Shown: in pieces, positions 1,406 through 53,712 of the stretch | How positions within the stretch are numbered: the first letter of the stretch is position 1 | Layout of the letters: each line of letters starts with the position of its first letter | From: Embleya hyalina | Lineage (GTDB): Bacteria > Actinomycetota > Actinomycetes > Streptomycetales > Streptomycetaceae | Reading direction: 5' to 3' | Length of the DNA stretch: 64,000 nt | NCBI RefSeq assembly: GCF_003967355.1 | Contig: NZ_BIFH01000028.1 | Location: 124,001 to 188,000 of the forward strand | The notes under the pieces: generated by a model | Told to the model about the DNA's origin: nothing | The model's input: only the letters and a program-made list of their open reading frames with translations | The model's database searches: none | Program-made: the position numbers and the translations under genes

Positions 1406-1420
1406 GAAAGGGACTCTCCC

Positions 1421-2837: not shown

Positions 2838-2862
2838 ACGGTCGCACGAAACGGGAGCGGAC

Positions 2863-18400: not shown

Positions 18401-21400
18401 CATCGAGTTCTCCCGGCAGCGCACGTTGTCCCCCGACGGCCGGGCCAAGGCGTTCGCCGAGGCCGCCGACGGCACCGGATGGTCCGAGGGCGTGGGCATG
18501 TTCGTACTGGAACGGTTGTCCGACGCCCGCCGGCACGGGCACCCGGTGCTCGCGCTGATCCGGGGCAGCGCGGTGAACTCCGACGGCGCGTCCAACGGCC
18601 TGACCGCCCCCAACGGCCCGGCGCAACAGCGGGTGATCCGGCAGGCGTTGGCCAACGCGGGCCTCGTCGGGGCCGAGGTGGACCTGCTGGAGGCGCACGG
18701 GACGGGCACCAGACTCGGCGACCCGATCGAGGCACAGGCCCTGTTGGCCACCTACGGCCGGGACCGGCCGGCGGATCGCCCCCTGTGGCTGGGTTCGGTC
18801 AAATCCAACATCGGGCACACCCAACACGCCGCCGGTGCCGGTGGGTTGATCAAGGCGGTCCTGGCCATGCGCGACGGCCTGATGCCCAAGACGCTGCACG
18901 TGGACGAGCCGACGTCGGCGGTGGACTGGTCGTCCGGGGCGATGCGGTTGTTGACCGAGGCCCGCCCGTGGCCGGAGGTGGACGGGCCGCGTCGGGCCGC
19001 GGTGTCGGCGTTCGGGATGAGCGGGACGAACGCGCATGTCGTGCTGGAGCAGGCCCCCGAGGAGCCGGTCCCGGCGGAGGCGGAGGTGTCCCTGCCGGCG
19101 GTGCCGTGGGTGTTGTCGGCCAAGTCGCCGCAGGCGCTGCGGGCGCTGGCCGAGCGCATGGCATCGCTGTTGTACACCACGGACGAAGCGGACGTCGCCG
19201 GTGCCGCGCCGAGCCTGCTCGACGTCGGGTTCTCGCTGGCGGCCCGGTCCGGGTTCGAGTACCGGGCGGTGCTCGTGGTCGGGGAGGCCGCGGAGGCCCG
19301 GGCCGGGCTGTGGGCGATCGCCGAGCCCGAGCGCGAGGCGGAGCGCGGGCCCGAGCCCGAGCGCGAGGTGCCCGCCACCGCGGACGGGCGCACCGCGTAC
19401 CTGTTCTCCGACCGCCCCGCGCCCGGCCCGGACCGGGCCTTGTACGAGACGTGGCCGGTGTACGCCCGGGCGTTCGACGCCGTGCTCGCCGAGGTCGAGG
19501 GTGAAGGGGCGGGGGAGGGTCGATTCGCCGCCGAGGTGGCGCTGTTCCGCCTGGTCGAGTCCTGGGGTGTGAGCTTCGGCTGCGTCGCCGGGACCGGCGT
19601 CGGCGAGCTTGCCGCGGCGTACGTCGCCGGGGCGCTCTCGGCGCCCGACGTGCGCCGCTTGCTGGCCGACGGACAACGGGCCGAGGTGACCTTCGGGGAG
19701 CCGCGCATCCCGGTGCTGTCGTTGCGCACCGGCAGGCCGCCGGCCGCCGACGACGCGCCGGGGTCGAGCGGAACCGAGGGCGCCGCGGTCGCCGAGCGGT
19801 GGATGGCCGAGCGGCGGGTGACCCGCCTCGTCGAATCGGGCGGCCCCGACCGGGTGTTCCGCCATTCGGTGGCGCTGCTCCCGGACGGCCGGCCGCAGGT
19901 ACGCGCCGTGCTCGACGGGGTCGGCGAACTGTTCGTGGCCGGCGCCCCCGTCGACTGGTCGGCCGTGTTCGCCGGCACCGGGGCGCGCCGTATCGCCCTG
20001 CCCACCTACCCGTTCCGGCACGAGCGCTATTGGCCGGCCGCGCCCGAACCCGCCGAGGACGCCGACGCCGGCACCGCCTCGCTGTTCGAGCTGCGCTGGA
20101 CCCCGGTCGCGGCGCCGGCGGACGACGAGCCGGAGAGCCTGCTCGCCCTGCTCGGCGACGACCCCGCCGGCCTGGCCGCGGTGGCGCCGCTGCGATTCGG
20201 CGACGTCGAGGAGGCCGCGACGGCCTTCACCCCGTGGGACGTACTGCTGGTGCAGCCGTCGGCGCCGGAGGATCCCGCCGCCGACGGACCGGCCGAGGTG
20301 GATCGAGCGGTGGCCCGGGCGCTCGACGTGGCGCAGTCCTGGCTGGCCCGGGAGAACCTGCCGGACAACCGCCTGATCGTGGTGACCCGGGGCGCGATGG
20401 CCGTCGAGGCCGGGGAGGACGTACCCGACCCGGCCGGTGCCGCGGTGTGGGGCCTGCTGCGCTCGGCCCAGGCGGAGCACCCGGATCGAATCGTGCTGGT
20501 CGACCTGGACGACGACCCGGCCTCGACCGACCGGCTGTTCGTGGTGGCCCAGACCGGGGAGCCCCAACTCGCGGTGCGCGCCGGACGGTTGCTCGCCCCG
20601 CGACTGGTGCCGTCGACGCCGGTGCCGGATGTGGTGCCGCCGACACCGGTGGCGGGCGGCACCGTGCTGGTCACCGGTGCCGGCGGGCCGCTGGGCGCGC
20701 TGTTCGCCCGGCACCTGGTCACCGCGTACGGCGTGGAACACCTGGTGCTCGCCGACCCGAACGTCCCCGACTCGCCCGCCACACGACTGCGGGACGAACT
20801 GGCCGCGCTCGGCGCCTCGGCGACGGTGGTCGCCTGCGACCCGGCCGACCGCGACGCGGTACGCGCGATGCTCGCGGGCATCCCGGCCGAGCACCCGCTG
20901 ACCGGGATCGTGCACACCGAAAACGTGCTCGACGACGGTGTGTTCACCGCGCTGACCCCGGCGCGTGTGGCGGCGGTGTCGCGGCCCAAGGTGGACGGCG
21001 CCCGGCACCTGCACGAGCTGACCGCCGACACCCCGCCCGCGCTGTTCGTGCTGTTCTCCTCGGTGGTCGGCATGCTCGGCAGCCCGGGCCAGGCCAACTT
21101 CGCCTCGGCCAACGCCTACCTGGACGCGCTGGCGACCCGCCGCCGGGCCGCCGGACTGCCCGCCGTGTCACTGGCGTGGGGCCGGATGGTGGCGAGCGCG
21201 CAATCCGGCCTGCGGGTGATCGCCGAGGACGAGGCGTGCGCGCTGTTCGACGCCGCGCTCGCCGACGGGCACACCGTGATCGTGCCCGCCCCGCTCGACC
21301 TTCCCGCGCTGCGCCGAGACGGTGCGCAGGTCCCGGCGGTGTTGCGGCACCTGGTGCCGCGCGACGAGCGCCGCACGGCCGGCACCGAGCAGCCGGCCGA

Positions 21401-21962
21401 CCGGTTCGCCGCGATGAGCCGGGCCGAGGCCGAGGCGTACCTGCGGGACCTGGTGCGCACCGAGGCGGCGGGCGTACTCGGCCACGCGGCGCCGGACCGG
21501 TTGCGGTGGGAGGTGTCCTTCCGGGACTCCGGCTTCGACTCGTTGTCCGCCGTGCAGTTCCGCAACCGACTGGGGGAGCGCACCGGCCTGTCGCTGCCCA
21601 CCACGCTGGTCTTCGACTACGCCTCACCGGACGTACTGGTGGACCACCTCCTCGACCGGCTCGCCGTCACCGACGGAGTGGACCGCCGCGCGGCACTGGC
21701 CGAACTGGACCGCCTGGAGGCGGTGTTGATGGCCGTGCCGGTCGAGCCGACGGACGACGAGGACTCCGGTCACACCGAGATCGCCGCCCGACTGAACACC
21801 ATCCTCGCCCGCTGGAACAAGGCCCGGACCGAGGCCCGTTCGCACGCCCCCGACGCCGACGCGATCGACCCGGCCACCGCGATCGAGACCGCGACCGAGA
21901 ACGAGATCTTCGACTTCATCGACCGGGAGCTGGGCCGCTCCGCCGCCAACCCCCAACGCTGA
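12456..21962 (+). CDS. Type I PKS, two modules: KS-AT(malonyl)-DH-KR-ACP and KS-AT(inactive)-KR(inactive)-ACP
   Basis: The protein has 3168 residues. A docking helix precedes M4: KS 34-460 (DTACSSS), AT 567-907 (GHSIGE, HAFH: malonyl), DH about 920-1205 (canonical [17 protein letters not shown]), KR about 1399-1580 (GGTGALG, IDD, NYSAAN) and ACP 1672-1755 (GFDSL). M4 makes a double bond. M5: KS about 1773-2198 (DTACSSV, both His motifs intact), then a shortened AT remnant (about 2311-2525) and a KR-like region (about 2735-2910), both lacking key residues, and an intact ACP (GFDSL). No DH lies between. M5 can therefore condense but cannot select its own extender or reduce the ketone. ATG 12456 follows GGAAGGGGG, 34 bp after the previous stop. 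The C-terminal docking region ends [15 protein letters not shown]. Confidence 0.95.
14517..15114 (+). repeat. Inverted-repeat copy 1 (AT of module 4), partner at 46285-46882
   Basis: This part of the M4 AT is nearly identical, in opposite orientation, to the M6 AT. Without any gap, base x matches base 61399 minus x. Two stretches read as identical: 14517-14732 (216 bp) and 14824-15114 (291 bp). Between them lies an 89-bp divergent patch covering HAFHS and the residues after it. The pattern suggests recent gene conversion or duplication between the two PKS genes. Confidence 0.9.
19387..20030 (+). other. Degenerate acyltransferase domain of module 5 (AT0)
   Basis: In M4 the same region holds a full AT of about 300 residues. 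Here it is roughly 215 residues. The GQGxQ entry motif is replaced by a Pro/Asp-rich loop. The nucleophile motif GHSxGE reads GTGVGE, with Thr2380 for His and Gly2381 (codon 19596-19598) for Ser. The VNGPxSVVVSG strand and the YASH/HAFH specificity loop are missing altogether. The flanking FEYRAVLVV linker and the LPTYPF...RYW exit motif remain, so this is decay inside a normal module frame and not a boundary error. It cannot form an acyl-enzyme. Confidence 0.9.
20658..21215 (+). other. Degenerate ketoreductase domain of module 5 (KR0)
   Basis: The NADPH motif reads GAGGPLG instead of GGTGxLG. The active-site Tyr of NYxAAN is Phe2882 (ANFASAN, codon 21099-21101). The segment after the LAWG motif that forms the lid is about 15 residues shorter than in M4 ([14 protein letters not shown]). 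Ser of FSSVVG and Lys of RPKVDG remain. Loss of the Tyr proton donor with a shortened lid predicts no ketoreduction, so the M5 beta-ketone should survive in the chain. Confidence 0.85.
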
Positions 21963-21977
21963 CCACAAGGAGACACG

Positions 21978-24869
21978 GTGAACGCACCCACCCGCTACGC
22001 CGAGGCCCTGCTGACCGGAATGCTCGGCACCTTCGGTCTGGACGTCCAGTACGTCCGGGCGGAGCAGAACTCGCTGTACTACCTGGACGACACCGGCACC
22101 GAGGTGCCCGTGCTCGACCTGATCGGGGGTTGGGGCTCGCTGATGCTCGGGCACAACCATCCGGAGATCGTGGCGTACGCGAAGGAACTCCTGGACACCG
22201 GTTGGCCGGTGCACTCCCAGCACTCCGCGCACCCGGTCGCCGACCAGGTCGGCGCGGTGCTCAACGGCATCCTGGGCCGGGAATTCCCCGGCGCCGAGCC
22301 GTACTCGATCGGCTTCGCGAACAGCGGTGCGGAGGCGGTCGAAGCGGCCGTCAAACACTGCGAGTTCGACCGCGTGTTGCGGATGCAGAGCCTGGTCCGG
22401 GAGATCGAGTGGCACGCCGACGTGGCGCTGCGCGCGGTGCGCGAGGGAAGCGCGGCGCTACCCGACGACACGTCGTTGCTGCCCGGCGAGGTGCCGGTGC
22501 CCACCACCGTCGAGGAGTTCGCCGGAGTGCTCGGCGCGATGGCCGCGCACAACCTCTCGCGCGCGGGCGCCGGACCGGTGTTCTTCGCCCTGGAGCGGGC
22601 CTTCCACGGAAAGCTGATGGGCAGTACCCAGTTCACCTACAACCCGCTGTTCCGGGCGGCGTTCGCGGCGCTCGGCTCGACGGTGACCTTCGTGCCGGCC
22701 AACGACGCGGCCGCGTTCGAGAAGGCCGTCGCCGAGCATCGGGTCACCGTGCTCGACGTGGAGGTGGTGCACGGCCGGGTCACCCTCGTCGAGCGGGCCT
22801 TCCCGGTGATCGCCGGACTGATCGTCGAGCCGATCCAGGGCGAGGGCGGAATCCACGAGCTGACCGAGGAGTTCGGCGCCCGCGTGCGGCGGATCTGCGA
22901 CGAGGTCGAGTGCCCGATCGTGGTCGACGAGATCCAGACCGGGATGGGGCGCACGGGCCGGTTCTTCGCGAGCAGCCACATCGGACTCCTCGGCGACTAC
23001 TACGTCTTGGGCAAGTCGCTCGGCGGCGGCATCGCCAAGTCCTCCGCGATCCTCGTGCGACAGTCGCGCTACCGCCCCGAGTTCGAGCTGGTGCACAGCT
23101 CCACGTTCGCCAAGGACGGCTTCTCCACGGCGATCGCGCTGCGCACCCTCGACCTCCTGGAAGCCGACGACGGCGCCGCGTACGCGCGGGCCGCCGAGCG
23201 CGGCGGGCGCATCCTGGGCATGCTGCGCGAACTGGCCGCCGAATTCCCCGACGTGGTGGCCGACGTACGCGGACGCGGGCTGCTGATCGGGCTGGAGTTC
23301 GCCGACCAGAGCAACGCGTCGTCCCCGATCATCCGGGGCAAGGCCCAGGCCGGTCTGCTCGTCTTCCAGTTGGGCAGCTACCTCCAGGCGGTCCACCGCA
23401 TCCGCACCGGCCCCACCGCCAGCGTGCCGACCATGTTGCGGATCGAGCCCTCGATCTGCATCAGCGACGAGGAGATCGATCGGCTGCGGACCGGCCTCAC
23501 CCAGGTCTGCCTGATCCTGCGCAACCAGGACGCGCTGCCCCTGGTACACCCGCTGACCGGCGCCGGCGGCCCGCCGCCGCGCGTGGAAAGCGCGGACTTC
23601 CGGCCGCGGCGCGCCGATTCGGCCGTGCGGGCCGAGCCGGCCGCACCGACCGAGCCGGCCGACCGCCGCGTCGCGCTGATCGGCTACCCGCTGACGCCCG
23701 ACCTGCTGCGGGAGGCGGACCCCTCGCTCGCCGACCTGGACGACGAACATCTGCTCGGCTACTGCCGGCGCTCCGAACTGCTCAAGGACCTCCCGGCGTT
23801 CGCGCCGATCCGGTTCGACTCGCCGCAGGGCACGTCGGTGGACCTCACCGTCTACCCGCTGCTGGTGTCCCTGCGGCAGTTGCGGGAGTACCAGGTCTCC
23901 GGGCAGACCTTCCTGATCGGCCTGGACCTCGACCGCCGGGTGCGCGCGGCGAAGGCGGACGGCTGCGACACCGTCGGCCTCGGATTCGGCCTCGGCGCGG
24001 TCGCCGGTCACGGTCGCGCGCTGCGGGTGCCCGGGATCACGGTGACCCCGGGCAGCGCGCTCACGGTCGGCTCGGCGCTGGCCGCCGTCCGGCACGCCGC
24101 GACGGAGCGGTCGGGCGGGTTCGCCGGTTCGACGGTGGCGGTCGTCGGCGCCGGCGGCCGGATCGGCTCGGCGCTCGCCGTACTGAGCGCACGCGAGGCC
24201 GCCGCGATCGTGCTCGTGGGCAGCGGCCGGTCCGGCTCGGCCGATCGGCTCCGGGCCACGGAGCAGTGGATCTACCAGGAGGCGTGGGCGCGGATCGCCG
24301 CCGGCGACGCGGCGACGGGCCTGGCGGCGGCGCTGTCCGCGGAGCCGCTGATCACCGGCTGGCTGGCCGAGGGGCGCGCCGCCGACGAACCGAGCGGGGC
24401 GGCCATCGCCGCCCACCTCGCCGAAGCGCACGACGTGAACCCGTACGTCGTGGTCACCGACGACCCGCTGTCGGTGCGCCGGGCCCGGGTGGTCTTCGCG
24501 GCACACTCGAGCCCGGTCCCCGTGCTCGACGGGAAACACCTCGCGGACGGCGCCGTGCTCGGCGACGTGTCCTTCTTCGGCACCGGTGCCGAAAGCGCCG
24601 CGGCGGCCGGCCGCGACGACGTGCGATACGTACGCGCCGGCGTGCTCTCCGTATCCGACGGGGCCGAAGTGCCGCGTGCCCTGGGCATCGCACCGAACGC
24701 CGGTGAGTTGCTCGCGGGCGCGGCCGAGGCCGTCACGCTCGCGCTGTCCGGCGACGGCGGACCCGCGAGCGACGGCGGACGGAGCGGCGCCGGCGCCCTC
24801 ACCGGTGAGCGGGTGCAGGCCATGGTCGACCTCGCGCGGCGACACGGCTTCGAGACCGTCACCACCTGA
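21978..24869 (+). CDS. Class III aminotransferase fused to an acyl-ACP-reductase-like domain
   Basis: The protein has 963 residues. The GTG at 21978 follows AAGGAGA, 15 bp after the PKS stop. Residues 1 to about 515 are a class III (omega-type) PLP aminotransferase: FANSGAEAVEAA, the PLP-ring Asp317 in VVDEIQTGMGRTG, and Schiff-base Lys346 in LGKSLGGG. After an Ala/Pro-rich linker, residues about 560-963 resemble cyanobacterial acyl-ACP reductase, with a Rossmann motif VAVVGAGGRIGSA (about 720) and a C-terminus ending RHGFETV. By eye, the reductase Cys of the cyanobacterial enzyme aligns with Gly914. The overall plan recalls TamH and PigE, two-domain enzymes of tambjamine and prodigiosin biosynthesis. 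Its likely role is amination of the aldehyde released by the TR domain; whether the second domain reduces anything is open. Confidence 0.85.
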   Translation: MNAPTRYAEALLTGMLGTFGLDVQYVRAEQNSLYYLDDTGTEVPVLDLIGGWGSLMLGHNHPEIVAYAKELLDTGWPVHSQHSAHPVADQVGAVLNGILGREFPGAEPYSIGFANSGAEAVEAAVKHCEFDRVLRMQSLVREIEWHADVALRAVREGSAALPDDTSLLPGEVPVPTTVEEFAGVLGAMAAHNLSRAGAGPVFFALERAFHGKLMGSTQFTYNPLFRAAFAALGSTVTFVPANDAAAFEKAVAEHRVTVLDVEVVHGRVTLVERAFPVIAGLIVEPIQGEGGIHELTEEFGARVRRICDEVECPIVVDEIQTGMGRTGRFFASSHIGLLGDYYVLGKSLGGGIAKSSAILVRQSRYRPEFELVHSSTFAKDGFSTAIALRTLDLLEADDGAAYARAAERGGRILGMLRELAAEFPDVVADVRGRGLLIGLEFADQSNASSPIIRGKAQAGLLVFQLGSYLQAVHRIRTGPTASVPTMLRIEPSICISDEEIDRLRTGLTQVCLILRNQDALPLVHPLTGAGGPPPRVESADFRPRRADSAVRAEPAAPTEPADRRVALIGYPLTPDLLREADPSLADLDDEHLLGYCRRSELLKDLPAFAPIRFDSPQGTSVDLTVYPLLVSLRQLREYQVSGQTFLIGLDLDRRVRAAKADGCDTVGLGFGLGAVAGHGRALRVPGITVTPGSALTVGSALAAVRHAATERSGGFAGSTVAVVGAGGRIGSALAVLSAREAAAIVLVGSGRSGSADRLRATEQWIYQEAWARIAAGDAATGLAAALSAEPLITGWLAEGRAADEPSGAAIAAHLAEAHDVNPYVVVTDDPLSVRRARVVFAAHSSPVPVLDGKHLADGAVLGDVSFFGTGAESAAAAGRDDVRYVRAGVLSVSDGAEVPRALGIAPNAGELLAGAAEAVTLALSGDGGPASDGGRSGAGALTGERVQAMVDLARRHGFETVTT

Positions 24870-24888
24870 GAACCGCAGGATACGGCTC

Positions 24889-24914
24889 GCCGGACCATCG
24901 GCCGATGGTCCGGC
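24889..24914. promoter_or_regulatory. 26-bp perfect palindrome upstream of the exporter gene
   Basis: The sequence from 24889 to 24914 is a perfect inverted repeat with no spacer, two 13-bp arms built on CCGGACCATCGG. It sits 19 bp after the aminotransferase stop and ends 23 bp before the MFS start. It could be an operator for a dimeric repressor of the exporter, or an RNA hairpin separating expression of the two genes. No T-run follows, so a classical terminator is less likely. Confidence 0.6.
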
Positions 24915-24937
24915 CCGATCAACAGAAGGTACGCGGA

Positions 24938-26449
24938 ATGTCAGAGTCAGCAGATTCCGAGTCGAAAGTGGCGGCGGAGGGCACGCCGGATCTCCACTAC
25001 ACCAACCGCTGGTTGATCCTGGCGGTGATCGGTCTCGCCCAGATGACGATCTTCCTGGACACGACGGTCGTCAACATCGCGCTGCCGTCGGCGCAGGCGG
25101 ATCTGGGCTTCGGCGACGGGGACCGCCAGTGGGTCGTCACGGCCTACGCGCTCGCCTTCGGCAGCCTGCTCCTGCTCGGCGGCCGACTGGTCGACCTCGT
25201 GGGGGCCAAACGCTCGCTGATGATCTCCATCGTCGGCTTCGGCGTGATGTCGGTGCTGGGCGGCGCGGCCAACGGCTTCGCGATGCTGGTGACCGCGCGC
25301 GCGTTGCAGGGGGCGTTCGCCGCGCTCGTGGCGCCGGCGGCACTGTCCTTTCTGCTGACCGTGTTCAAGGATCCGAAGGAACGGGTCACCGCGTTCGGGG
25401 TCTACGGCGCGCTGGGCAGCGGTGGGCTCGCGCTCGGCCTGATCCTGGGCGGCGCGTTGACCGACTGGCTGGACTGGCGCTGGTGCCTGTACGTCAACGT
25501 GATCCTGACCGCGGTCGTGTTCGTCGGCGCGCTGCTGACGATGCAGAACCGGCAGGCCGCACAGCGCCCGGAACGGCTCGACCTGCCCGGCACGGTGACC
25601 GCCTCGGTCGGTCTGTTCTGCCTCGCCTACGGTCTGTCCAACGCCGCCGACGGGGAGTGGGGCGGCGCCGACGTGTGGGGCTACCTGGTCGGGAGCGGGA
25701 TCCTGCTCGTCGCGTTCGTCGTGTTCGAACTGCGCTCGCGTACCCCGCTGTTGCCGATCCGGATCGTGCTGCACCGCAACCGGGGCAGCGCCTACCTGGC
25801 GATGTTCCTGCTCGGTGTCGGGTTGTTCGTGCAGTTCCTGTTCCTGACCTACTACCTGCAATTGATCCTGAAGTTCACCGCGATCGAGAGCGGACTGGCG
25901 TTCCTGCCGATGATCTTCGGCATCGCGATCGGCGCGACCACCGTGCCGCCGGTGCTCGAACCCAAGCTCGGCGCGCGCATCCTGATCCCGGCGGGTCTGC
26001 TCCTGGCCGCCGTCGGTTCGTTCTGGCTCAGCCGGCTGAGCACGGACAGCTCGTACGCAGCCGGCGTGCTCGCCCCGTCCTTCATCGCCGGCATCGGCTT
26101 CGGCCTGGTGGTCTCGCTCGGCGCCGCGGTGGCCACGGTCGGGGTCGAACCCCAGGACGCGGGCGCCGCGTCGGCACTGGTGAACACCGTGCAGCAGGTG
26201 GGTGGTTCGATCGGTACCGCGCTGCTGAGCACGCTGGCGATCACCGCGGCGGACTCGTTCGTCGAGGGCAAGGAGAAGACGGCGAAACTGGCCGCGGAGG
26301 CGTCCGTGGAGAGTTACACGACCGCCTTCTTCTGGGGCGCGATGGTCTTCCTCGGCGGGGCGATCGTCTGTGGTCTGCTGTTCGACCGCTTCGTGACGGC
26401 GCAGGCCGACCCGGAGATCGAGGAGCCGGCCACGGCGGTCGGCGCCTGA
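24938..26449 (+). CDS. MFS drug exporter, DHA2 (14-helix) family
   Basis: The protein has 503 residues from ATG 24938, chosen over the upstream ATG 24905 because AGAAGG lies 8 bp before it and the upstream codons fall in the palindrome region. After a short soluble N-terminus the membrane part begins with WLILAVIGLAQMTIFLDTTV, carrying the LDxTVVNIALP motif of the EmrB/QacA family. GGRLVDLVGAKR (motif A) and about 14 hydrophobic segments follow, ending in an Asp/Glu-rich cytoplasmic tail. Transporters of this type in antibiotic clusters export the product and give self-resistance. It is the last gene of the block starting at 6041. The substrate is inferred from position only. Confidence 0.9.
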   Translation: MSESADSESKVAAEGTPDLHYTNRWLILAVIGLAQMTIFLDTTVVNIALPSAQADLGFGDGDRQWVVTAYALAFGSLLLLGGRLVDLVGAKRSLMISIVGFGVMSVLGGAANGFAMLVTARALQGAFAALVAPAALSFLLTVFKDPKERVTAFGVYGALGSGGLALGLILGGALTDWLDWRWCLYVNVILTAVVFVGALLTMQNRQAAQRPERLDLPGTVTASVGLFCLAYGLSNAADGEWGGADVWGYLVGSGILLVAFVVFELRSRTPLLPIRIVLHRNRGSAYLAMFLLGVGLFVQFLFLTYYLQLILKFTAIESGLAFLPMIFGIAIGATTVPPVLEPKLGARILIPAGLLLAAVGSFWLSRLSTDSSYAAGVLAPSFIAGIGFGLVVSLGAAVATVGVEPQDAGAASALVNTVQQVGGSIGTALLSTLAITAADSFVEGKEKTAKLAAEASVESYTTAFFWGAMVFLGGAIVCGLLFDRFVTAQADPEIEEPATAVGA

Positions 26450-26715
26450 TCGCTTTCGCCGCACCGTTTGGTCGCACCGCTTTGCCGCACTGAATCGTCG
26501 CACCGATTCTCCGCACCGATTTCGTTCCTCGCGCGACCGTGAACCGGTCGTCCTGCGGTACTGGTTCCCAGTACCAGCGGGGCGATCGGTTTTTGGTTTC
26601 GGGGCGCTGGGATCGGTCGGCCGCAGGGGATTGACTCGACCGTGAGACGCGGTGCGTGAGCCCGCCCCGATCGGGGCTCGGGCCGGCCGACGACCCCCGA
26701 TCGCAGGAGGATTTC
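26450..26715. promoter_or_regulatory. Intergenic region with short inverted repeats before the monooxygenase gene
   Basis: This is a 266-bp gap. Its first 75 bp hold imperfect copies of TCGCACCG followed by a short T-rich stretch (26457-26525). Two compact inverted repeats follow: CGACCG / CGGTCG at 26534-26550, and an 8-bp perfect pair GGTACTGG / CCAGTACC with a 3-base spacer at 26557-26575. The second looks like an operator. No terminator with a T-run is visible. Confidence 0.4.
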
Positions 26716-27918: not shown

Positions 27919-27987
27919 GGGATTCACCGAGGGATTCACCGAGGGATCCGCCGAGGGATTCGGCTTCCATCGAGGCGGATATCGAAT

Positions 27988-28044
27988 GCGTCGGTATTGC
28001 TCGGCGGCCGGGAGGGTCCGGTGGCCGCCGAGCAATACCGACGC
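27988..28044. terminator. Strong 22-bp stem-loop in the gap before the loading-module PKS
   Basis: Two perfectly complementary 22-base arms, 27988-28009 and 28023-28044, built on GCGTCGGTATTGCTCGG, flank a 13-base loop and are followed by TGTTTT. This fits a terminator for the monooxygenase gene, but also a large operator, since the PKS gene starts 130 bp later. Just before it, 27918-27962 holds four tandem copies of a 12-bp GAGGGATTCACC-type unit. Confidence 0.65.
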
Positions 28045-28173
28045 TGTTTTCGGAATGGGGTTCGCCCGAAATTCCCGACCGGGAGATTGTTGGTTTCGCT
28101 CACCAGATTCCCCGGCGCACTTTGGGTCGGAGAAACAAGCCGTCCCGCGGGCACACGGCGTTGACTGGGGAAT

Positions 28174-36933
<8,760 letters not shown>

Positions 36934-36999
36934 GAACCCGGTCTTTTCCGAGAACTCGGCCCGTCCCCGACAACTCGGCCCGTCCCGAACGGAGCGCTT

Positions 37000-42450: not shown

Positions 42451-42462
42451 CACCGAACGACC

Positions 42463-42500
42463 AAGGGTCCGCCGGGGCTTCGATGCCCCGGCGGACCCTT
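42463..42500. terminator. Bidirectional terminator between convergent PKS genes
   Basis: Perfect 16-base arms, 42463-42478 and 42485-42500, built on AAGGGTCCGCCGGGGC, enclose a 6-base loop TTCGAT. The hairpin lies 13 bp after the plus-strand PKS stop and 32 bp beyond the minus-strand PKS stop, so it can end transcription from both sides. Confidence 0.9.
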
Positions 42501-42532
42501 CGCCGTGTGCCGCGACCGGCGGCCCGAACGCC

Positions 42533-45500: not shown

Positions 45501-48500
45501 GCGTACAGGTCGAACCCGCGCCACGACAGCTCGGCGGTGTCCTGCCCCACGGCGAGCAACGCGTGCAGCGCCGCGTCCAGCAGCGCCGGATGGATCCCGA
45601 ACGTGTCCGGGTCCGTGTCGTCGGGAAGCCGCACCTCGGCGAACAGATCCGCACCCTGCCGCCACAGGGCCCGCAGCCCCCGGAACACCGGCCCGTACGC
45701 GCGGCCCTTCCCGTCGAGCCGCGGGTAGAGGTCGTCGAGATCGACCGGGACCGCGTCGGGCGGCGGCCAGGCGGCCAGGGAGATCAGCGGCGCCGGCGCC
45801 GGCTCGGTGAGCAGCCCCCGGGCGTGCACGAGCCACGCCGCGCCCGGCTCGCCCCGATCCGGCCGGGAGCCGATCGTGATCGGTCGACAACCGTCCTCGT
45901 CGGGCGGACCCAGGGTCACCTGGACCTGCACCCCGCCGCTGTCCGGGACGGCCAGGGGAGCGTGCATCGTCAGGTCGACGATGCCGGGGCAGCCGACCTC
46001 GTCGCCGGCCCGGACCGCCAACTCGACCAGGGCCGCCGGAGGCAGCGTCACGGTGTCGTCCACGCGGTGGTCGGCGAGCCAGGGATGGGTGTGCGGGGAG
46101 AGCCGACCGGTGAGCACGAGCCCGGCACCGCCCGTGAGTTCGATGGCGGTCGTCAGCAGTGGGTGCTCCGGCGTGATCAGCCCCAGTCCGGTGGTCCTGC
46201 GCCCGCCGGGGGAGGTGCCGTCCAGCCAGTACGGCCGGTGCTCGAAGGGGTAGGTCGGAAGATCGACGAGCGAGGCGGTCGTGCCCGCGAACAGGTGTTG
46301 CCAGTCGACGGTGTGGCCGTGGGTGTGCAGCCGGGCGAGCGCGGTGAGCGCGGTACGGGCCTGGGGGCGGTCGCGGTGTTGGAGGGCGACGAACAACCCG
46401 TCCGGTGCGGTCTCCGGGCCCAGGGCGGTGAGGACCGCGTCCGGGCCGATCTCCAGGAACCGCGTGACGCCCCGCTCCCGCAGGCGGGCGACATGCTCCG
46501 CGAAGCGCACCGGCTCGCGGACGTGGTCGACCCAGTACCGCGCCGAACGCACATCGGCCGCGTCGGCCGCCATCGGAATGCCGGGCTCGCCCAGTTCGAC
46601 CGTGTCCAGAACACCGGCGAACTCGTCGAGAACCGGGACCATCGCCGGGGAGTGGAAGGCGTGGCTGACGGTGAGCCGGTTCGTCGTGTGGCCGCGCTCC
46701 CGCAGGGCGTCCGCGACCGCGAGGACGACGTCCTCGGCGCCGGAGACCACCACCGACGTCGGCCCGTTGACCGCCGCGATCCCGGCCCGGTCCTCGTACC
46801 CGCGCAGGAGTTCGCGCACCTCCGCCTCGGCGGCCCGCACCGCGACCATCGCCCCGCCGGCCGGCAACGCCTGCATCAACCGCCCGCGAGCGGCGACGAC
46901 CCGGCACGCGTCGGCCAGGGTCAGCACACCCGCGACATGCGCGGCGGCCAACTCCCCGATCGAGTGCCCCGTCACGAAGTCCGGCCGTACACCCCACGAT
47001 TCCAGCAGCCGGAACATCGCCACCTCGACCGCGAACAACGCCGGCTGCGTCCACCCGGTCCGATCCAGCCCTTCACTGTCGCCGAAGACGACATCCTTCA
47101 GCATCCCGGGCAACACGGCGTCGAAGTGGCCACAGACCTCGTCGAACGCCGCCGCGAACACCGGAAAGCCGTCATACAACTCCCGGCCCATGCCCACACG
47201 TTGCGCACCCTGACCGGTGAACAGGAACGCCAGACGCCCCTCGCCCGCCGCCCCGGACACCACCCCCGCCGCCGACTCGCCCGCGGCCAACGCCCGCAAC
47301 CCCGAGACGAGTTCGTCCCGGTCCCCGGCCACCACCACCGCGCGGTGCTCGAACATCGACCGCGTCACCGCCGCCGACAAGCCCACATCCGGCAACGACG
47401 CACCGCCGGCGCCGTCCACCACGGACACCAACCGCCGCGCCTGCGCCCGCAACGCCCCGGCCGACCGCGCCGACACCACCACCGGAACCACCGGCAACAC
47501 CGATCCGGCCGGCATCGCCGGCTCCGGGTCGTCGACCGGCGCCTGCTCGACGACAAGATGCGCGTTCGTCCCGCTGACCCCGAACGACGAGACCGCGGCC
47601 CGCCTCGGCCGCCCGGTCGACGGCCACGCGCGCTGCTCCGTGACCAGCTCGATCGCCCCGGACGACCAGTCCACCGCGGGTGTCGGCTCGTCCACGTGCA
47701 GCGTCTTGGGCACCACCCCGTGGCGCATGGCCATGACCATCTTGATCACCCCGGCCACCCCCGCGGCGGCCTGGGTGTGTCCGATGTTCGACTTCAACGA
47801 GCCCAACAGCAGCGGCTCGCCGGCCGGTCGCGACTGCCCGTACGTCGCCAGCAGCGCCTGGGCCTCGATCGGATCGCCGAGCATCGTCCCCGTGCCGTGC
47901 GCGTCGATGACGTCGACCTCGGCGGGGGAGAGGCCGGCGTTCGCCAGCGCCCGACGGATCACCCGCTGCTGCGCGGGACCGCTCGGCGCGGTCAGGCCGT
48001 TGGACGCGCCGTCGGAGTTCACCGCACTGCCCCGGATCACCGCCAATACCGGCAACCCGCGCCGCCGCGCGTCGGACAACCGGGCCAACACCAGCATCCC
48101 GACGCCCTCGGAGAACCCGGTGCCGTCCGCCGCCGCCGCGAACGCCTTGCAGCGGCCGTCCGGCGCCAGCCCGCGCTGCCGGGAGAACTCCACGAAGCCG
48201 TCCGGCACCGGGATCACCATCGCGCCGCCGGTGAGCGCCAGCGAGCACTCGCCGTTGCGCAGCGCGGCGACGGCGTGATGGATGGACACCAGGGACGACG
48301 AGCAGGCCGTGTCCATGCTGACCGTCGGCCCCTCCAGGCCCAGGACGTAGGAGAGCCGGCCGGACGCGACGCTGGTCAACATCCCGGTCATCGCGTAGCC
48401 CTCGATGCCGGTCGCCGACGCGCTGACCGTCGAGGCGTAGCCGGTGTACATCACGCCGACGAACACCCCGGTGTCGCTGCCGCGCAGCGACCGCGGGTCC

Positions 48501-48976
48501 ATCCGGGCCCGTTCCACGGCCTCCCAGGCGGTCTCCAGGAGCAGTCGCTGCTGCGGGTCCATCGCCAGTGCCTCGCGCGGCGAGATGCCGAAGAAGGCCG
48601 CGTCGAATCCCTTCACGTCGTCGAGGAATCCGCCCTCCCGCGCGTAGAACTTGCCCATGGCGTCGGGGTCGGGGTCGTATCCGCCCTCGACGTCCCAGTC
48701 CCGGTCGGTGGGGAAGCCCGTGATCGCGTCGACGCCGTCGGCGGCCAGGCGCCACAACTCCTCGGGCGTGGACACGCCCCCGGGGTAGCGGCAGCCCATG
48801 CCCACGACGGCGATGGGTTCGGCCCGGCTCGACTCCAACTCCTCGACCCGGTTTCGGGCCTTGTGCAGGTCGGTGGTGACCCACTTGAGATAGTCGAGCA
48901 GCTTCTCGTCCTTGCTCATGCCGCGACCGCCGTTCATCTCCGGACCGCCGTTCATCTCGCGCCCACCACCGCTCAT
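42533..48976 (-). CDS. Terminal type I PKS module with thioester reductase: KS-AT(malonyl)-DH-KR-ACP-TR
   Basis: The protein has 2147 residues from ATG 48976, which overlaps the stop of the upstream regulator (ATGA), so the two are translationally coupled; ATG 48919 (MSKDEKLL) is an alternative matching other docking starts. Order from the N-terminus: docking helix, KS (48820-47540; DTACSSS), AT (47240-46200; GHSIGE, HAFH: malonyl), DH (46170-45370; [10 protein letters not shown], with Gly replaced by Asp; HPALLDA intact), KR (44800-44240; IDD, NYSAAN), ACP (44000-43740; GFDSL) and an NAD(P)H-dependent reductase (43640-42536; [28 protein letters not shown]). The TR replaces a thioesterase, so the chain should leave as an aldehyde. 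This marks the end of the assembly line, and an aminotransferase is in the cluster. Confidence 0.94.
46285..46882 (-). repeat. Inverted-repeat copy 2 (AT of module 6), partner at 14517-15114
   Basis: This is the minus-strand partner of the M4 AT repeat. The copies lie about 31 kb apart and face each other, so recombination between them would invert the intervening PKS, aminotransferase and exporter genes. They are also a likely place for assembly errors with short reads. Confidence 0.9.
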
Positions 48977-50364
48977 GAGGACACCGCCCGAATCGAGTGC
49001 TCCAGTCCCGCCGCGGGGCCCTGTTTGGCCAGTACGGACGAGCCGAGCCGTTCCGCCAGATACAGCGCGAAGTGCAGGCGCAGGTGGTCCTCGCGCAACG
49101 ACCGCCCGAGCAACTGCTCCGCCTTCTTGACCCGATACACCACGGTGTTCTTCGCGATGTGCAGGTGTTTGGCCGTGGTCGCCACGCCACGCTCGTTGTC
49201 CAGCAGGCACCGCACGGTCTCGCGCAACGCGGCCATGGTGCGGTTGTCGGCGGCGAGCGGTCCGAGTTCGCGGCGTACGAAGTCGGCGGTGGCCTCGGCG
49301 TCGTTGCCGAGCAGGATGACCAGTTCGAGGTCGCCGTAGTCGCACAACCTCGACGGGCCGGGTTCGGTGATGCGGCCGACCCGCTCGGCGGTGATCGCCT
49401 GCTGGTGCGAACGCCGGAAGCCCGCGATGCCGTCCCCGGGCAGCCCCGAGGCGACGTGCACGTGCGCGGGCAGGTCCATCGGCTTGGCGGAGCGCCGCAG
49501 TTCACCCGGATGGTCGGTGGCGCGCCCACCCCATGCCCACAGGCGTCCCGGGCCCGCCGGAAGCAGCAACATCGAGGAACAGCCCACCTGGTCGAGCAGG
49601 CGCAGCGCGGTGGTCTCCAGGTCCCGTCTGCTGTCCGGGGTGATCTCGTCCTGCCACAGGATCAGCGCGACGTGATGCAGGGTCAGGTCGTAGCGCAGCT
49701 GGTGCAGCGCCTTTCGGGTGTCGGTCGGCTTGCCCTTGAGGATCGCGGACACCGATTCGAAGCGCTCGCCCACGGATCCGGCGAACCAGCGGTTGCGTTC
49801 GGCGGCGAACTTCTCGGTCACCGAGGCCGACAGCGTCTCCATGCCCTCGAACAGGTCGGCCGAGATGGAGCGCATCATGGCCGGCTGGTCCTCGGCGGGA
49901 ATCATCGTCTCGCGGAACTCGAACAACTCACGGGTGAAGCTCGCGTGGGTGGCCCGGACGTAGCGGAGCAGGAGGTCGACGGTCGTGTTGTCCGCGATCC
50001 GTTCCCGGATGGCGTTGGTGAGTTCGGCGGAAAGCAGGCCGGTTATGGCCCGGACGCCGCTGAGTCGCAGGACGACCCACAGTGCGATCGCCTCGACCAA
50101 CCGGGTTTCGCTGCACGACTTGCGATCGAAGCGGGCGAAGGGTTCCTCGGCCAACTCGGCCAGTAAGAGCCGGCTGTTCTCGATGGCCCAACCGGTCGCC
50201 CCCGAGCCGACGCGGGCGACGACCTCCTCGATCAGCTGCGGGTTCGTCGCCGGTAAGTGGAGTACGGAATCGTCGACGGGTTGAAGTAGGTGCAGCAGGG
50301 AATAGGTGGACGTTATCTGCCGTGGCGCAGGAATGGTGGCCTGCGATATCGAATAGCCCGACAA
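48973..50364 (-). CDS. PucR/CdaR-type transcriptional regulator with two TTA codons
   Basis: The protein has 463 residues from TTG 50364, chosen because GTACGGAGG lies 7-8 bp before it; the longer GTG 50418 frame would run through a conserved noncoding element. The C-terminal about 60 residues form the PucR helix-turn-helix ([26 protein letters not shown]), and the middle is the usual GGDEF-like CdaR region. Two in-frame TTA Leu codons (complements of 50254-50256 and 50164-50166) predict dependence on the bldA leucyl-tRNA, hence late-growth expression. Its stop overlaps the start of the terminal PKS gene, so regulator and last module are made together. It probably controls the cluster; the ligand is unknown. 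Confidence 0.85.
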
Positions 50365-50476
50365 CGAGTTGCCTCCGTACCGGAAAGCGGACGCGACTGG
50401 GTGTCGGCAGCCTGGCACGGTTTCACTCGCACGGGGTAATCATCCGGTAACCGCACGCTCGGGACAAGATTACCGA
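50338..50476 (-). promoter_or_regulatory. Conserved promoter/leader element A before the PucR regulator
   Basis: About 140 bp are similar to element B at 52172-52310, including TGCGATATCG, CCTCCGTAC (the ribosome site in complement) and the first codons of the regulator. Upstream, relative to that gene, lie GGTAATC (50435-50441), GGTAACC (50446-50452) and GATTACC (50468-50474), at steps of 11 and 22 bp. Heptamers at 11-bp steps are the known layout of SARP operators, so the cluster's SARP may act here. Confidence 0.65.
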
Positions 50477-50669
50477 CCGGTGGGCGCAAGCGGTCGACTT
50501 GCGTGCTGTCGTGTGATTCGCCGCCCGGGAACGGGCGGAGACGGTAGGCCACCGCCTCCGCCAGGCCTCGCATCTCGCGTGCTCGGTGCTTACCGGCGCC
50601 ACCCGTCCCGCACCGCGCGGAACCCGGGAAACAACGGTTGTTCGGATCGAAAGGAAGGCGGGGCGTTTG
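50365..50669. other. Gap between regulator start and acyltransferase end
   Basis: About 305 bp. The left part is promoter element A. The remainder, 50477-50669, holds no gene that can be supported; it contains a small AACAACGGTTGTT palindrome near 50630-50642, close to the convergent end of the acyltransferase gene, but no strong terminator. Confidence 0.5.
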
Positions 50670-51902
50670 CTATTTCGTCACGCCGAGGCCGTCCGTACTC
50701 AGGGGTGTTGTCACTCGGGAGGAGAATCCGGCGGCCTTGACGGAATTCGCCCGGTGCCGCCCGAAGCGCCGCACGAGCGGCATCTCCACGAAGCGATAGA
50801 GGACGAAGGAACACGCGAGCGCCGCCAGGAACAGGGGGACGATCAGCAGCGCGCCGGTGGTCGAGGAGAACGTACGGGTGGGCCCGATCCAGTCGGCGGC
50901 CGCGCCGATGACGATCCAGTGGACCATGTAGAAGGCGAAGGAGAGTTCGCCCAGGAGGATCATCGTCGGCCTGCGGAACACCGAGGCGGTGCGCCGGCGG
51001 TCGGCGACCGCGGCGGAGGCGATCAGGGGCGCGGTCCACACCGTCGCGACCCCTGCGGTGCCCGCCAGGTACGGTTCGTAGCGGACGAGCACATAGCCGG
51101 CGACGGCGATCGCGAACGCCGGCACGAGGCCGATATTCGGCCACCGCCCCGCGGCCACGATCCGGGCCAGCAGGATGCCCAGGACGAATTCGAGCGCGCG
51201 CACGGGCGGGAAGAAGTACACGAACCACACCTGGTCGAACGACACTTCACCGGAGACGGCGAAGGCCGCGAGGCGCGGTTGGTCGTTCACCACGAAGGTG
51301 GCGACCAGGAACGCCCCCACGATCAGCGCGAGTACGGTGGCCAGCGCCGGCCACAACCACGCCTCGCGGATGCGGCGCAGGAGGGGATACAGGAGCGGGA
51401 AGGCGAGGTAGAAGAAGAACTCGCAACACAGCGACCAGGTGACCCCGTTGACCGCCGATACGGACCGGATGTCCGGAATCCACGCCTGCTGCATGCTCAG
51501 GGCGCCGAACCAGTCGACCATGCGGGTCGGCCGATCCGTGTGCAGCACGAGCAGGGCGGCCAGCCCGAAGGTGACCAGGTGCATCGGGCCGATCTTGACC
51601 ATGCGGCGGCGCCAGAACGACCGGGTCGTGTCGCCCGCACTCGCGGTCCAGGTCAGTACGAAGCCGCTGAGGATGAAGAAGAAGCCGACGCCGTACGAGC
51701 CCGCCAGGGCGAACGTCTCGCGGAGGTGGTTCCCGGTCTCGCCCGGGACCAACTGGGGTGTGTACCAGAGGACATGCGTGGTGAAGACCAGCAGGGCCGC
51801 CACGAAACGCAGTCCCGTCAACGACGGCAGTCGGGAGGGTTCGGGATCCGTGAACTCGTTCGTCCGGCCGGCGGTGTTCGAGCCGGTCTCCCGGGTCACC
51901 AT
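50670..51902 (-). CDS. Membrane acyltransferase, family 3 (macrolide O-acyltransferase type)
   Basis: The protein has 410 residues from ATG 51902, which overlaps the end of a short leader ORF; a longer frame to GTG 52004 is possible. The N-terminal LPSLTGLRFVAALLVFTTHV has the Arg...His pattern of the OafA/MdmB family, in which the His is catalytic, and about ten hydrophobic segments follow. The family includes enzymes that acylate sugar or aglycone hydroxyls of macrolides (MdmB, CarE types) as well as cell-wall acyltransferases. Placed between the PucR regulator and the free AT gene, and driven by a promoter resembling the regulator's, it is most likely a tailoring enzyme adding an acyl ester to the polyketide. 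Confidence 0.82.
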   Translation of the reverse strand: MVTRETGSNTAGRTNEFTDPEPSRLPSLTGLRFVAALLVFTTHVLWYTPQLVPGETGNHLRETFALAGSYGVGFFFILSGFVLTWTASAGDTTRSFWRRRMVKIGPMHLVTFGLAALLVLHTDRPTRMVDWFGALSMQQAWIPDIRSVSAVNGVTWSLCCEFFFYLAFPLLYPLLRRIREAWLWPALATVLALIVGAFLVATFVVNDQPRLAAFAVSGEVSFDQVWFVYFFPPVRALEFVLGILLARIVAAGRWPNIGLVPAFAIAVAGYVLVRYEPYLAGTAGVATVWTAPLIASAAVADRRRTASVFRRPTMILLGELSFAFYMVHWIVIGAAADWIGPTRTFSSTTGALLIVPLFLAALACSFVLYRFVEMPLVRRFGRHRANSVKAAGFSSRVTTPLSTDGLGVTK

Positions 51903-52198
51903 GTCGGTGTCGCGGGTCGAAGTCGGACGACCGGTCGATACACAATCGTTTTCCCGAAGTGCGGGGGACCGGACCGGGAATGGGCGGATGCGGTCGGCGG
52001 GCACACCGGTGTCTGCTCCGACGCGTGCGTCGCGGTGCGCTTCGCGATGGGCTTCGGAGTGTGCTTCGGTGTGTGCGCGAGGGAGTGCGCAGGTGAGTGC
52101 ACGAGGGAGCGTGCGGATGTGTGCACGAGTGAGAGCGCGGATGTGTACGCGGATGTCTGCGCAGGATTAGTCGCCTGCGATATCGGATTGCCCGACAC
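51896..52198 (-). CDS. Leader ORF upstream of the acyltransferase (100 residues, low complexity)
   Basis: GTG 52198 follows GGAGG with a 6-base spacer inside element B. The stop TGA at 51898-51896 lies just inside the ATG at 51902 (ATGGTGA), the layout of translational coupling. The first residues (SGNPISQATNPA) resemble the start of the PucR regulator ([12 protein letters not shown]), and then the sequence becomes Ser/His/Thr/Ala repeats such as LVHTSARSLVHSPAHS. Codon bias is weak. It may be a decayed copy of a regulator start kept as a leader rather than a functional protein. Confidence 0.4.
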   Translation of the reverse strand: MSGNPISQATNPAQTSAYTSALSLVHTSARSLVHSPAHSLAHTPKHTPKPIAKRTATHASEQTPVCPPTASAHSRSGPPHFGKTIVYRPVVRLRPATPTW

Positions 52199-52310
52199 GG
52201 ATAGCCTCCGTACTGGAAAGCCGGCGCGGCTGGGGCTCGGCAGCCTTCCACGATTTCGGGCACGTTCGGTAATCCGTCGGTAATCGCGCCGGGACGGCCC
52301 GATTACCGCA
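52172..52310 (-). promoter_or_regulatory. Conserved promoter/leader element B between acyltransferase and free AT genes
   Basis: This is the second copy of the element at 50338-50476. GGTAATC occurs at 52268-52274 and 52279-52285, with GATTACC at 52301-52307: exactly the same 11- and 22-bp steps as copy A. CGGTAATCG / CGATTACCG (52278-52286, 52300-52308) is also a perfect 9-bp inverted repeat. It lies between divergent genes and could serve the acyltransferase leftward and the free-standing AT gene (start 52390) rightward. Confidence 0.65.
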
Positions 52311-52389
52311 CGATGGGCCGAAGACGCGGCGTCGCGGATATCTTGCGAAGCACGCACGGTCCACCGTTCGGCACCGACGAGGAGTGCTC

Positions 52390-53712
52390 GTGAGCAAGCC
52401 GGCCATTCAAGACGTTCGTATCGGTGCCGCGGCCGGCACCGTGCCGTGGGTGTTGTCCGGGCGCAGCGCGGCGGGCCTGCGCGGCCAGGCCGCCCGCCTG
52501 CTGTCCAGACTGGAATCCGACGCGGCACGCGACGTCGTCACCGATGTCGCCGAGGTCGGTCGATCCCTGGTGGCGGCCGGCGCGACCCACGAGCACCGGG
52601 CCGTCGTGCTGGGCGACGACCGCAGCGAACTGGTCGCCGGGATACGGGCGCTCGTCGACGAACGGGCCGCGGCGAACGTGTTCACCGGGCAGGCGACCCG
52701 GCAGGCCCAGGCGGATTCCCGGCCGGTGTTCGTCTTCCCCGGCCAGGGCACCCAGTGGGTCGGCATGGCGGTGGAACTCCTGGACACCTGCCCCGAGTTC
52801 GCCCGCGGGATCCGAGCCTGCGCCGAGGCACTGGCGCCGCACGTGGACTGGTCTCTGGAGGACGTACTGCGCGGCGCCCCGGACACCCCGCCGCTGGACC
52901 GGGTGGACGTCGTACAACCCGTGCTGTTCTCGATGATGGTGTCGCTGGCCCGCCTGTGGCGCCGCTTCGGGGTGCGACCGGCCGCGACGGTCGGCCACTC
53001 CCAGGGCGAGATCGTGTCCGCGCACATCGCCGGCGCGTTGTCCCTGGCGGACGCGGCGCGGATCGTGGCGTTGCGCAGCCGGGCCCTGACCGCGATTCGG
53101 GGCCGCGGCGAGATGTTGACCGTACTCGCCCCCAACGACCGTGTGCGGACGATGCTGGCCGACTGGGACGGCGTGTTGGCGGTCGCCGCGGTGAACGGCC
53201 CGGCGACCATGACGGTCTCGGGCGACGTGGCGGCGATGAAGGAGTTCGGCGCCGCGCTGTCCGCGGCCCGGATGATGCGCTGGCGAGTTCCCGGCGTGGA
53301 CTTCGCGGCACACTCCCCGCACGTGGAGGATCTGCGCGAGACGCTGCTCGCTCTGGCGGCCGGGATCGAACCGGCCCGCGGCGACGTGCCGTTCTACTCG
53401 ACGGTGACCGGACGGCGCGTGGAGACCGACGAGTTGACCGCCGAGTACTGGTACCGCAACCTGCGCCAAACGGTGCGCTTCGACGACGCGGTCCGCACGT
53501 TGGTCGCCGACGGCCACACGCTCTTCGTCGAGTGCAGCGCGCAACCGGTGCTCTCGGTCGGGATCCAGGACACCGCCGAAGCGCTGGGCCGCCCGGCCGT
53601 GTTGCTGGCCACGCTCCGCAACGAGGACGGCGGGATGGGCCGGTTCCTGGCCGCGCTGGCCGAGGCGTACGTACACGGTGTCACGGTCGACTGGACGACG
53701 GCCTTCGCCTGA
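52390..53712 (+). CDS. Free-standing PKS acyltransferase, probable trans-acting AT for the AT-less module 5
   Basis: The protein has 440 residues from GTG 52390, preceded by AGGAG with a 5-bp spacer. It begins with a KS-to-AT linker of modular PKS type (VPWVLSGRSAAGLRGQAARL), then a full [16 protein letters not shown], Ser204 in GHSQGE, RIVALRSRAL with the conserved Arg, and VNGPATMTVSG. The specificity loop is FAAH (305-308) in place of YASH or HAFH. It stops after VHGVTVDWTTAFA, just before the LPTYxFxxxRYW exit motif. It therefore looks like a domain cut out of a cis-AT module, not a FabD-type malonyl transferase. With AT0 in M5 and a methoxymalonyl cassette in the cluster, trans-loading of methoxymalonyl is the best hypothesis. 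Confidence 0.88.
   Translation: MSKPAIQDVRIGAAAGTVPWVLSGRSAAGLRGQAARLLSRLESDAARDVVTDVAEVGRSLVAAGATHEHRAVVLGDDRSELVAGIRALVDERAAANVFTGQATRQAQADSRPVFVFPGQGTQWVGMAVELLDTCPEFARGIRACAEALAPHVDWSLEDVLRGAPDTPPLDRVDVVQPVLFSMMVSLARLWRRFGVRPAATVGHSQGEIVSAHIAGALSLADAARIVALRSRALTAIRGRGEMLTVLAPNDRVRTMLADWDGVLAVAAVNGPATMTVSGDVAAMKEFGAALSAARMMRWRVPGVDFAAHSPHVEDLRETLLALAAGIEPARGDVPFYSTVTGRRVETDELTAEYWYRNLRQTVRFDDAVRTLVADGHTLFVECSAQPVLSVGIQDTAEALGRPAVLLATLRNEDGGMGRFLAALAEAYVHGVTVDWTTAFA

Follow-up and report, generated by a model that had tools for sequence, protein, structure and literature searches.

The window analysed here is a stretch of 64,000 bases of Embleya hyalina DNA (bases 124001-188000 of the 246,610-base contig NZ_BIFH01000028.1). 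It carries a polyketide synthase (PKS) whose modules have built-in acyltransferases (cis-ATs), save for one module, M5, in which only a truncated AT relic (AT0) is left; a free-standing AT is encoded at 52390-53712. Positions are counted within the window, and features lie on the forward strand unless stated otherwise. Judging from the sequences, we consider it very likely that the free AT moves methoxymalonyl from the acyl carrier protein (ACP) of a methoxymalonyl-ACP cassette to the ACP of M5, that M5 condenses this unit and leaves it unreduced, that M6 extends the chain, that a reductase frees it as an aldehyde, and that the amine made by a transaminase then closes on the M5 ketone. The trans-loading of M5 with methoxymalonyl had been proposed in a first-pass annotation. 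It is supported by the loop of the free AT, the association of this loop with FkbH, the conserved pairing of the free AT with AT0 and the lack of any further AT on the contig. The accompanying idea of a split module does not stand, since AT0 is of malonyl type in all six genomes in which it was found.

A module without a working acyltransferase and the free AT

The Pfam AT profile, searched against the whole genome with a cut-off of 32.7 bits, matched the contig eight times, always within the window: seven full matches (197-334 bits) and a fragment of 24.1 bits, AT0 (19308-20045). The genome-wide search found no AT on the contig outside the window. M5 (17766-21665) is the second module of the PKS encoded at 12456-21962, which according to Pfam and sequence consists of M4, with ketosynthase (KS)-AT (malonyl, HAFH)-dehydratase (DH)-ketoreductase (KR)-ACP, and M5, with KS-AT0-KR0-ACP, followed by a C-terminal docking segment. 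As can be read directly from the sequence, the GHS(I/V)GE motif has become GTGVGE in AT0, His being changed to Thr and Ser to Gly, and the stretch bearing the specificity loop and the catalytic His is missing. The M5 KS (17766-19055), 82-91% identical across four close relatives, retains DTACSS, EAHGTGT and KSNIGH, and the M5 ACP (21441-21665), the proposed acceptor of methoxymalonyl, retains GFDSL. The KR of M5 (KR0, 20646-21335) is dead, its catalytic Tyr being replaced by Phe (GQANF), and the DH is absent. The M5 features given in the first-pass annotation, a lost AT nucleophile and specificity loop beside intact KS and ACP, are therefore all present, and KS and ACP without a working AT are likewise found in the equivalent module of five other genomes. 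The dead KR, the missing DH and the reductase-bearing last module are additions to that annotation. M5 is predicted to be unable to load itself. An AlphaFold model of AT0 has a mean predicted local distance difference test score of 62.9, with most of residues 130-290 at 70-92. Its Foldseek matches are modular ATs with a template modelling score of about 0.5 and a large root-mean-square deviation, and the model therefore indicates only a general likeness to modular ATs.

The free AT (272 bits with Pfam) starts at a GTG codon at 52390 behind GAGGAG; both the ribosome-binding site and the start are conserved. Its catalytic motifs, GHSQGE and VDFAAH, are intact. It keeps the KS-AT linker of a modular enzyme and ends at VDWTTAFA, short of the PTYxFxRERYW exit motif, and so has the excised look that had been ascribed to it. 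Within NCBIfam it scores highest, at 473 bits, against a modular PKS model, over the part with linker and AT; FabD scores 112 bits, and the difference favours descent from a modular AT. In six genomes the free AT is an open frame of its own, 440-479 residues long, with the N-terminal part of the Micromonospora copy in another frame. In Micromonospora sp. NBS 11-29, both the free AT (L065:2451-3703) and the thioester reductase of the cluster (L146) are spread over more than one frame, which reflects either assembly errors or decay. The six remaining cis ATs in the window have ordinary motifs, as had been noted, with YASH (methylmalonyl) in three and HAFH (malonyl) in three.

Free-standing orthologues were found in a genome of the same genus (G001, 84% identical), in two further genera (G096, 78%, and G307, 56-58%), in Streptomyces sp. 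NRRL B-1347 (L064, 76%) and in Micromonospora sp. NBS 11-29 (L065, 79%). At least six genomes thus have a free AT, and they span at least four genera and two families, Streptomycetaceae and Micromonosporaceae. Among the matches listed, all six carry a truncated AT in the matching module. G002 and G003, from the genus of the window, have neither the free nor the truncated AT. In 394 genomes drawn from the class, the window's own genome alone gave a free AT match at E values up to 1e-150. The arrangement of AT0 and free AT is not an assembly error, because both are found in five other genomes.

The His loop is absent from all six truncated ATs. The catalytic Ser is lost in five of them (GTGxGE, or GSGLGE in Micromonospora), while the AT0 of G307 keeps GHSTGE without a His loop, which suggests that the loop of AT0 was lost before the Ser. 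The change of the M5 KR Tyr to Phe is likewise present in five of six genomes, with Tyr kept in G307. Outright loss of the M5 DH is seen in the window cluster only; the domain is present in the five relatives, its HxxxGxxxxP motif being unchanged in G394 and altered in G395 and G307, whereas a pattern search did not find it in G001 and G096.

The carrier loop and the methoxymalonyl-ACP cassette

Methylmalonyl ATs that use coenzyme A (CoA) esters carry the motif RXR(X)5YASH, and ATs that use methoxymalonyl-ACP carry MXW(X)5YASH, according to the accessible text of PMC4207774. The loop of the free AT, MRWRVPGVDFAAH, reads MRW-RVPGVD-FAAH, that is, MXW plus one extra residue, with six residues before FAAH in place of five in the published form. 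Trp and PGVDFAxH are invariant across 12 aligned ATs. When the 66 residues around the loop were compared with the PDB, the best matches were 6L3M, 6L3N and 6J0U at 58 bits, the next scoring 42; the three are mutually identical over the aligned stretch, and 6J0U is by its title the AT from module 3 of the ansamitocin PKS. That module takes methoxymalonyl-ACP as its extender. Its AT loop is the closest among solved structures, with 18 of 23 residues identical to the free AT loop. The 12 ATs of the bafilomycin-type cluster in G160 include AT3 and AT7 with HAFH and AT6 with PGVDFAGH. This order agrees with the assignment of the bafilomycin ATs in the consulted part of PMC3679948, where AT3 and AT7 are malonyl and AT6 and AT12 methoxymalonyl ATs.

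The loop was found to accompany FkbH. With the free AT as query against 394 family genomes (E values of 1e-128 or lower, with four candidates scored in each genome), 18 genomes were retrieved, four with free-standing copies (the window's genome, G001, G096 and G307) and 14 with modular ATs. Twelve of the latter have both PGV[D/E]FAGH and FkbH, and two (G063 and G339) have neither. We also counted the loop by a DNA pattern for PGV[D/E]FA[A/G]H across the same 394 genomes. The pattern was present in 29, all of which have FkbH, a gene found in 205 of the 394 (201 above the curated cut-off). The chance of this is about 2e-9 under independence, although the genomes are not independent. Loop and FkbH lie on one contig, 7-54 kb apart, in 23 of the 29 genomes and on different contigs of draft assemblies in six. 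All 26 loops that were read in frame contain the Trp (of the 29, G065, G073 and G139 were left out). In the genome of the window, FkbH and the loop pattern each occur once. Since the contig has no further AT and the genome has a single loop and a single FkbH, the objection that a PKS to the left of the window might hold another methoxymalonyl AT is ruled out.

The methoxymalonyl-ACP cassette, said earlier to open the cluster, does so and is complete, with five genes at 3-3954. These encode an FkbK-like 3-hydroxyacyl-CoA dehydrogenase that runs off the left window edge (3-734, Pfam 3HCDH_N and 3HCDH), an FkbG-like O-methyltransferase (743-1405, start approximate, Pfam Methyltransf_3, 214 bits), an FkbJ-like free ACP, the proposed methoxymalonyl donor (1421-1744), an FkbI-like acyl-CoA dehydrogenase (1737-2837, Pfam Acyl-CoA_dh domains) and FkbH, for glyceryl-ACP synthesis (2863-3954, TIGR01686, 378 bits). 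The ACP gave no Pfam match and only weak NCBIfam ACP matches; it is kept in four relatives (G001, G096, G394 and G395) and resembles the ACP of a bafilomycin-type cluster, G057. Identity to the copies in G001 and G096 is 83-87% for the O-methyltransferase, the acyl-CoA dehydrogenase and FkbH.

Ancestry of the two acyltransferases and selection on them

By BLAST against 112 extracted AT rows, AT0 is nearest to malonyl-type (HAFH) ATs in all six genomes. A tree was built from 67 of these rows, comprising the six free ATs, all ATs of the window and of G160, 16 loop ATs and random samples of the rest; five near-duplicate loop ATs, row L156 (broken by a stop) and trans-AT references were left out. 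The free ATs form one clade (100/99), and with the loop columns removed they fall within the methylmalonyl-type superclade (100/100). Since AT0 is of malonyl type and the free AT belongs to the methylmalonyl-type superclade, the free AT did not originate as the AT of M5. As far as these sequence affinities indicate, M5 is a malonyl module in which an AT of other origin has taken the place of the dead one.

Ratios of non-synonymous to synonymous change (dN/dS) were calculated by a simple counting method, each against the window copy, and no stop codons were reported in any stretch used. Taken over all relatives, five comparisons each gave 0.13-0.31 for the M5 KS, 0.13-0.52 for the ACP, 0.25-0.42 for the KR and 0.46-0.62 for AT0; four comparisons gave 0.19-0.41 for the free AT, and two each gave 0.19-0.31 for the ATs of M4 and M6. 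With close relatives only, the values were 0.13-0.25 for the KS, 0.13-0.27 for the ACP and 0.46-0.62 for AT0 (four comparisons each), and 0.19-0.25 for the free AT (three). AT0 is under relaxed constraint yet still does not drift freely, in keeping with a structural role. We would go further only tentatively: it is possible, if rather doubtful, that a cis module changed its unit not through exchange of the AT but by inactivating its malonyl AT and taking on a methoxymalonyl AT released from another module, and that AT0, in frame in six genomes, is the docking scaffold of the free AT, equivalent to the docking platform of trans-AT systems.

Proposed pathway, alternatives and cluster context

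The PKS is envisaged as a six-module cis-AT line in which one module, M5, would be unable to load itself. The free AT would take methoxymalonyl off the cassette ACP and put it on the M5 ACP, and the M5 KS would condense the unit. Because the M5 KR is dead, the beta-keto group of this unit would be kept. M6 would add and process a malonyl unit, the thioester reductase would release an aldehyde, and the aminotransferase would convert it to an amine able to cyclize onto the M5 ketone, forming a six-membered cyclic imine with a methoxy group beside the ring carbon. A thioester reductase at the end of the last module (TIGR01746, 328 bits) and an encoded transaminase (Aminotran_3, 204 bits) are present as in actinobacterial polyketide alkaloid clusters and, together with the dead M5 KR, suggest that the product may be a methoxylated cyclic-imine alkaloid.

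Several observations weigh against this reading. The truncated and the free AT share a contig only in the window's genome and in G096 and lie on different draft contigs in the other four. In G001, NRRL B-1347 and Micromonospora, the free AT is at the end of a contig, next to a PucR gene and the beginning of the last PKS gene, with the truncated AT on a separate contig; in G307, the free AT shares a contig with FkbH, an aminotransferase and a reductase, the truncated AT being on a different one. The genomes counted for the FkbH association are related to each other. In the PDB search, the full-length ranking places other ATs above the ansamitocin AT, and the loop stretch alone favours it. Nor is the loop universal: AT12 of G160, assigned to methoxymalonyl in print, has a different one, WATRIETDFASH, the methoxymalonyl AT of tetromadurin is given YASH in the available part of PMC7489565, and the consulted text of PMC3679948 reports that the sequences of methoxymalonyl and methylmalonyl ATs do not differ significantly. 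The cases of AT12 and tetromadurin mean that the loop is not necessary for methoxymalonyl specificity and that its absence proves nothing; its presence is telling.

The one-residue insertion (PGVD) was rejected as a diagnostic. The AT of tylactone module 5, which is an ethylmalonyl AT, shares it (PGVDTAGH) without the Trp or FAAH, and the diagnostic features were therefore narrowed to the Trp and FA[A/G]H. In the tree built with the loop included, a 28-row group (93 in the SH-like approximate likelihood ratio test) holds the six free ATs and the 16 in-module loop ATs together with six loop-less rows. Without the loop columns, the methylmalonyl-type backbone and the placement of the free AT within it are not resolved, and the approximately unbiased test did not discriminate, as a control grouping with malonyl ATs passed it as well (p 0.29). 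Of the phylogenetic check proposed earlier, the assignment to the methylmalonyl-type superclade stands, and the grouping with loop ATs is seen with the loop columns kept. Since the backbone collapses without the lid columns and the control was not rejected, phylogeny was dropped as the main proof of specificity.

M5 might instead be loaded by a neighbouring cis AT, that of M4 or M6 (both malonyl), or by the transacylase of fatty acid synthase, with the free AT serving something else. The M4 and M6 ATs do flank M5 in the inferred order, a single AT loads successive modules in aureothin according to the accessible text of PMC9899208, and in haliangicin AT1 is inactive, with no trans-AT found in the account given in the consulted part of PMC4768178. 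We nevertheless consider this improbable. The cassette would be left without an evident user, as no other AT of the cluster has the loop and the genome has a single match to it (methoxymalonyl ATs with other loops do exist, however), and purifying selection acts on the free AT, which always accompanies AT0 among the matches listed.

Loading of M5 by the free AT with methylmalonyl, ethylmalonyl or hydroxymalonyl units would agree with its place in the methylmalonyl-type superclade, with which it has GHSQGE in common, and with the related GAAH motif of ZmaA-AT, which uses hydroxymalonyl-ACP (PMC4207774, in the part consulted). It is made quite improbable by the constant company of FA[A/G]H loops and FkbH, by the presence of the Trp and FAGH in the ansamitocin module 3 AT and by the O-methyltransferase within the cassette. 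Least of all do we favour M5 as a skipped, decaying module with the free AT and the cassette as remnants, which we hold to be very improbable. M5 has lost its AT and KR and, in the window, its DH, and AT0 changes faster than its neighbours; yet the active sites of the M5 KS and ACP are kept and well conserved in six genomes, the free AT and three cassette genes are conserved too, and the ketone left by the dead KR would be at the right place for closure of a cyclic imine.

Apart from the genes described above, the cluster encodes a SARP-type regulator (4009-6033, Pfam BTAD and AAA_16), an MFS exporter (24905-26449, TIGR00711 and Pfam MFS_1) and a PucR-type regulator on the reverse strand (48973-50418, Pfam HTH_30 and GGDEF_2). 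The module order, loading-M1-M2-M3-M4-M5-M6, was inferred from the KSQ, the docking segments and the reductase, and is provisional to that extent. The loading module, KSQ (AQSS)-AT (YASH)-ACP, is encoded with M1, KS-AT (YASH)-DH-KR-ACP, at 28174-36933. M2, KS-AT (malonyl, HAFH)-DH-KR-ACP, is placed at 37000-42450, and M3, KS-AT (methylmalonyl, YASH)-DH-enoylreductase-KR-ACP, at 6041-12421. The last module, M6, lies on the reverse strand (42533-49345) and has KS-AT (malonyl, HAFH)-DH-KR-ACP-thioester reductase, the TIGR01746 match covering 42533-43645. These assignments rest on Pfam, backed by direct reading of the sequence for the loading module, M1 and M2 and by motifs for the loading module, M1 and M3. 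The class III aminotransferase (21978-24869) is fused to a reductase-like C-terminal domain of about 420 residues; this domain gave no Pfam or PDB sequence match, has weak similarity to PigE and acyl-ACP reductase models and is kept in five related clusters.

The M4 AT (14157-15185) and the M6 AT (46223-47278) are about 91% identical to each other within the window and about 77-78% identical to their G001 counterparts; this closer mutual resemblance suggests gene conversion inside the cluster. A 42-base tandem repeat at 32523-32912 (9.3 copies, 86% matches) codes for a repetitive KS-AT linker in M1. An open frame of 2180 residues at 42797-49339, running antisense to that for M6, matches no family and looks like a by-product of high G+C coding. 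A membrane acyltransferase gene on the reverse strand (50670-52004, Pfam Acyl_transf_3), likely for tailoring, adjoins the free AT. Its retention there in G001, G096 and Micromonospora suggests O-acylation of the product; it was not seen at the free-AT locus of NRRL B-1347.

Among known systems, the ansamitocin module 3 AT and the bafilomycin-type AT6 have a carrier (lid) loop similar to that of the free AT, and both are built into modules. The oxazolomycin line differs from the present one, which is a cis-AT line save for one module with a truncated AT and has an excised-looking free AT that keeps its linker. The likeness lies in OzmC, a separate AT that supplies methoxymalonyl-ACP to a PKS having no AT of its own for this unit; the accessible text of PMC6164871 lists it beside other discrete ATs for unusual units, KirCII for ethylmalonyl-CoA and ZmaF for aminomalonyl-ACP. 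KirCII of kirromycin is likewise a discrete AT for one unusual extender in a line that also has cis ATs (PMC6164871 and PMC5818483, in the parts available), but it uses ethylmalonyl-CoA, whereas the free AT here has an ACP-carrier loop and a cis-type linker. In argimycin and coelimycin, a thioester reductase releases an aldehyde, which is then aminated, and the module 4 KR is inactive in argimycin and not in coelimycin, as described in the consulted sections of PMC9733639. The present cluster resembles both in thioester reductase release and a transaminase, and argimycin also in having an inactive KR; it differs in that those sections describe no methoxymalonyl cassette or free AT, and in the C-terminal fusion of its transaminase.

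No report of the same arrangement was found in the openly licensed literature, which most subscription papers lie outside. To our knowledge, what is new is the combination of a cis-AT line, a single AT-null module of malonyl descent, a freed AT of modular type with a methoxymalonyl loop, and their joint conservation across families. The cluster would represent a natural, repeatedly conserved case of what PKS engineers aim for, a module with a null AT that is complemented in trans by one of another specificity. It also adds a free-standing AT with a methoxymalonyl-ACP loop, useful for testing how an ACP-bound extender is recognized, and draws attention to a family of what are probably methoxylated polyketide alkaloids in Streptomycetaceae and Micromonospora.

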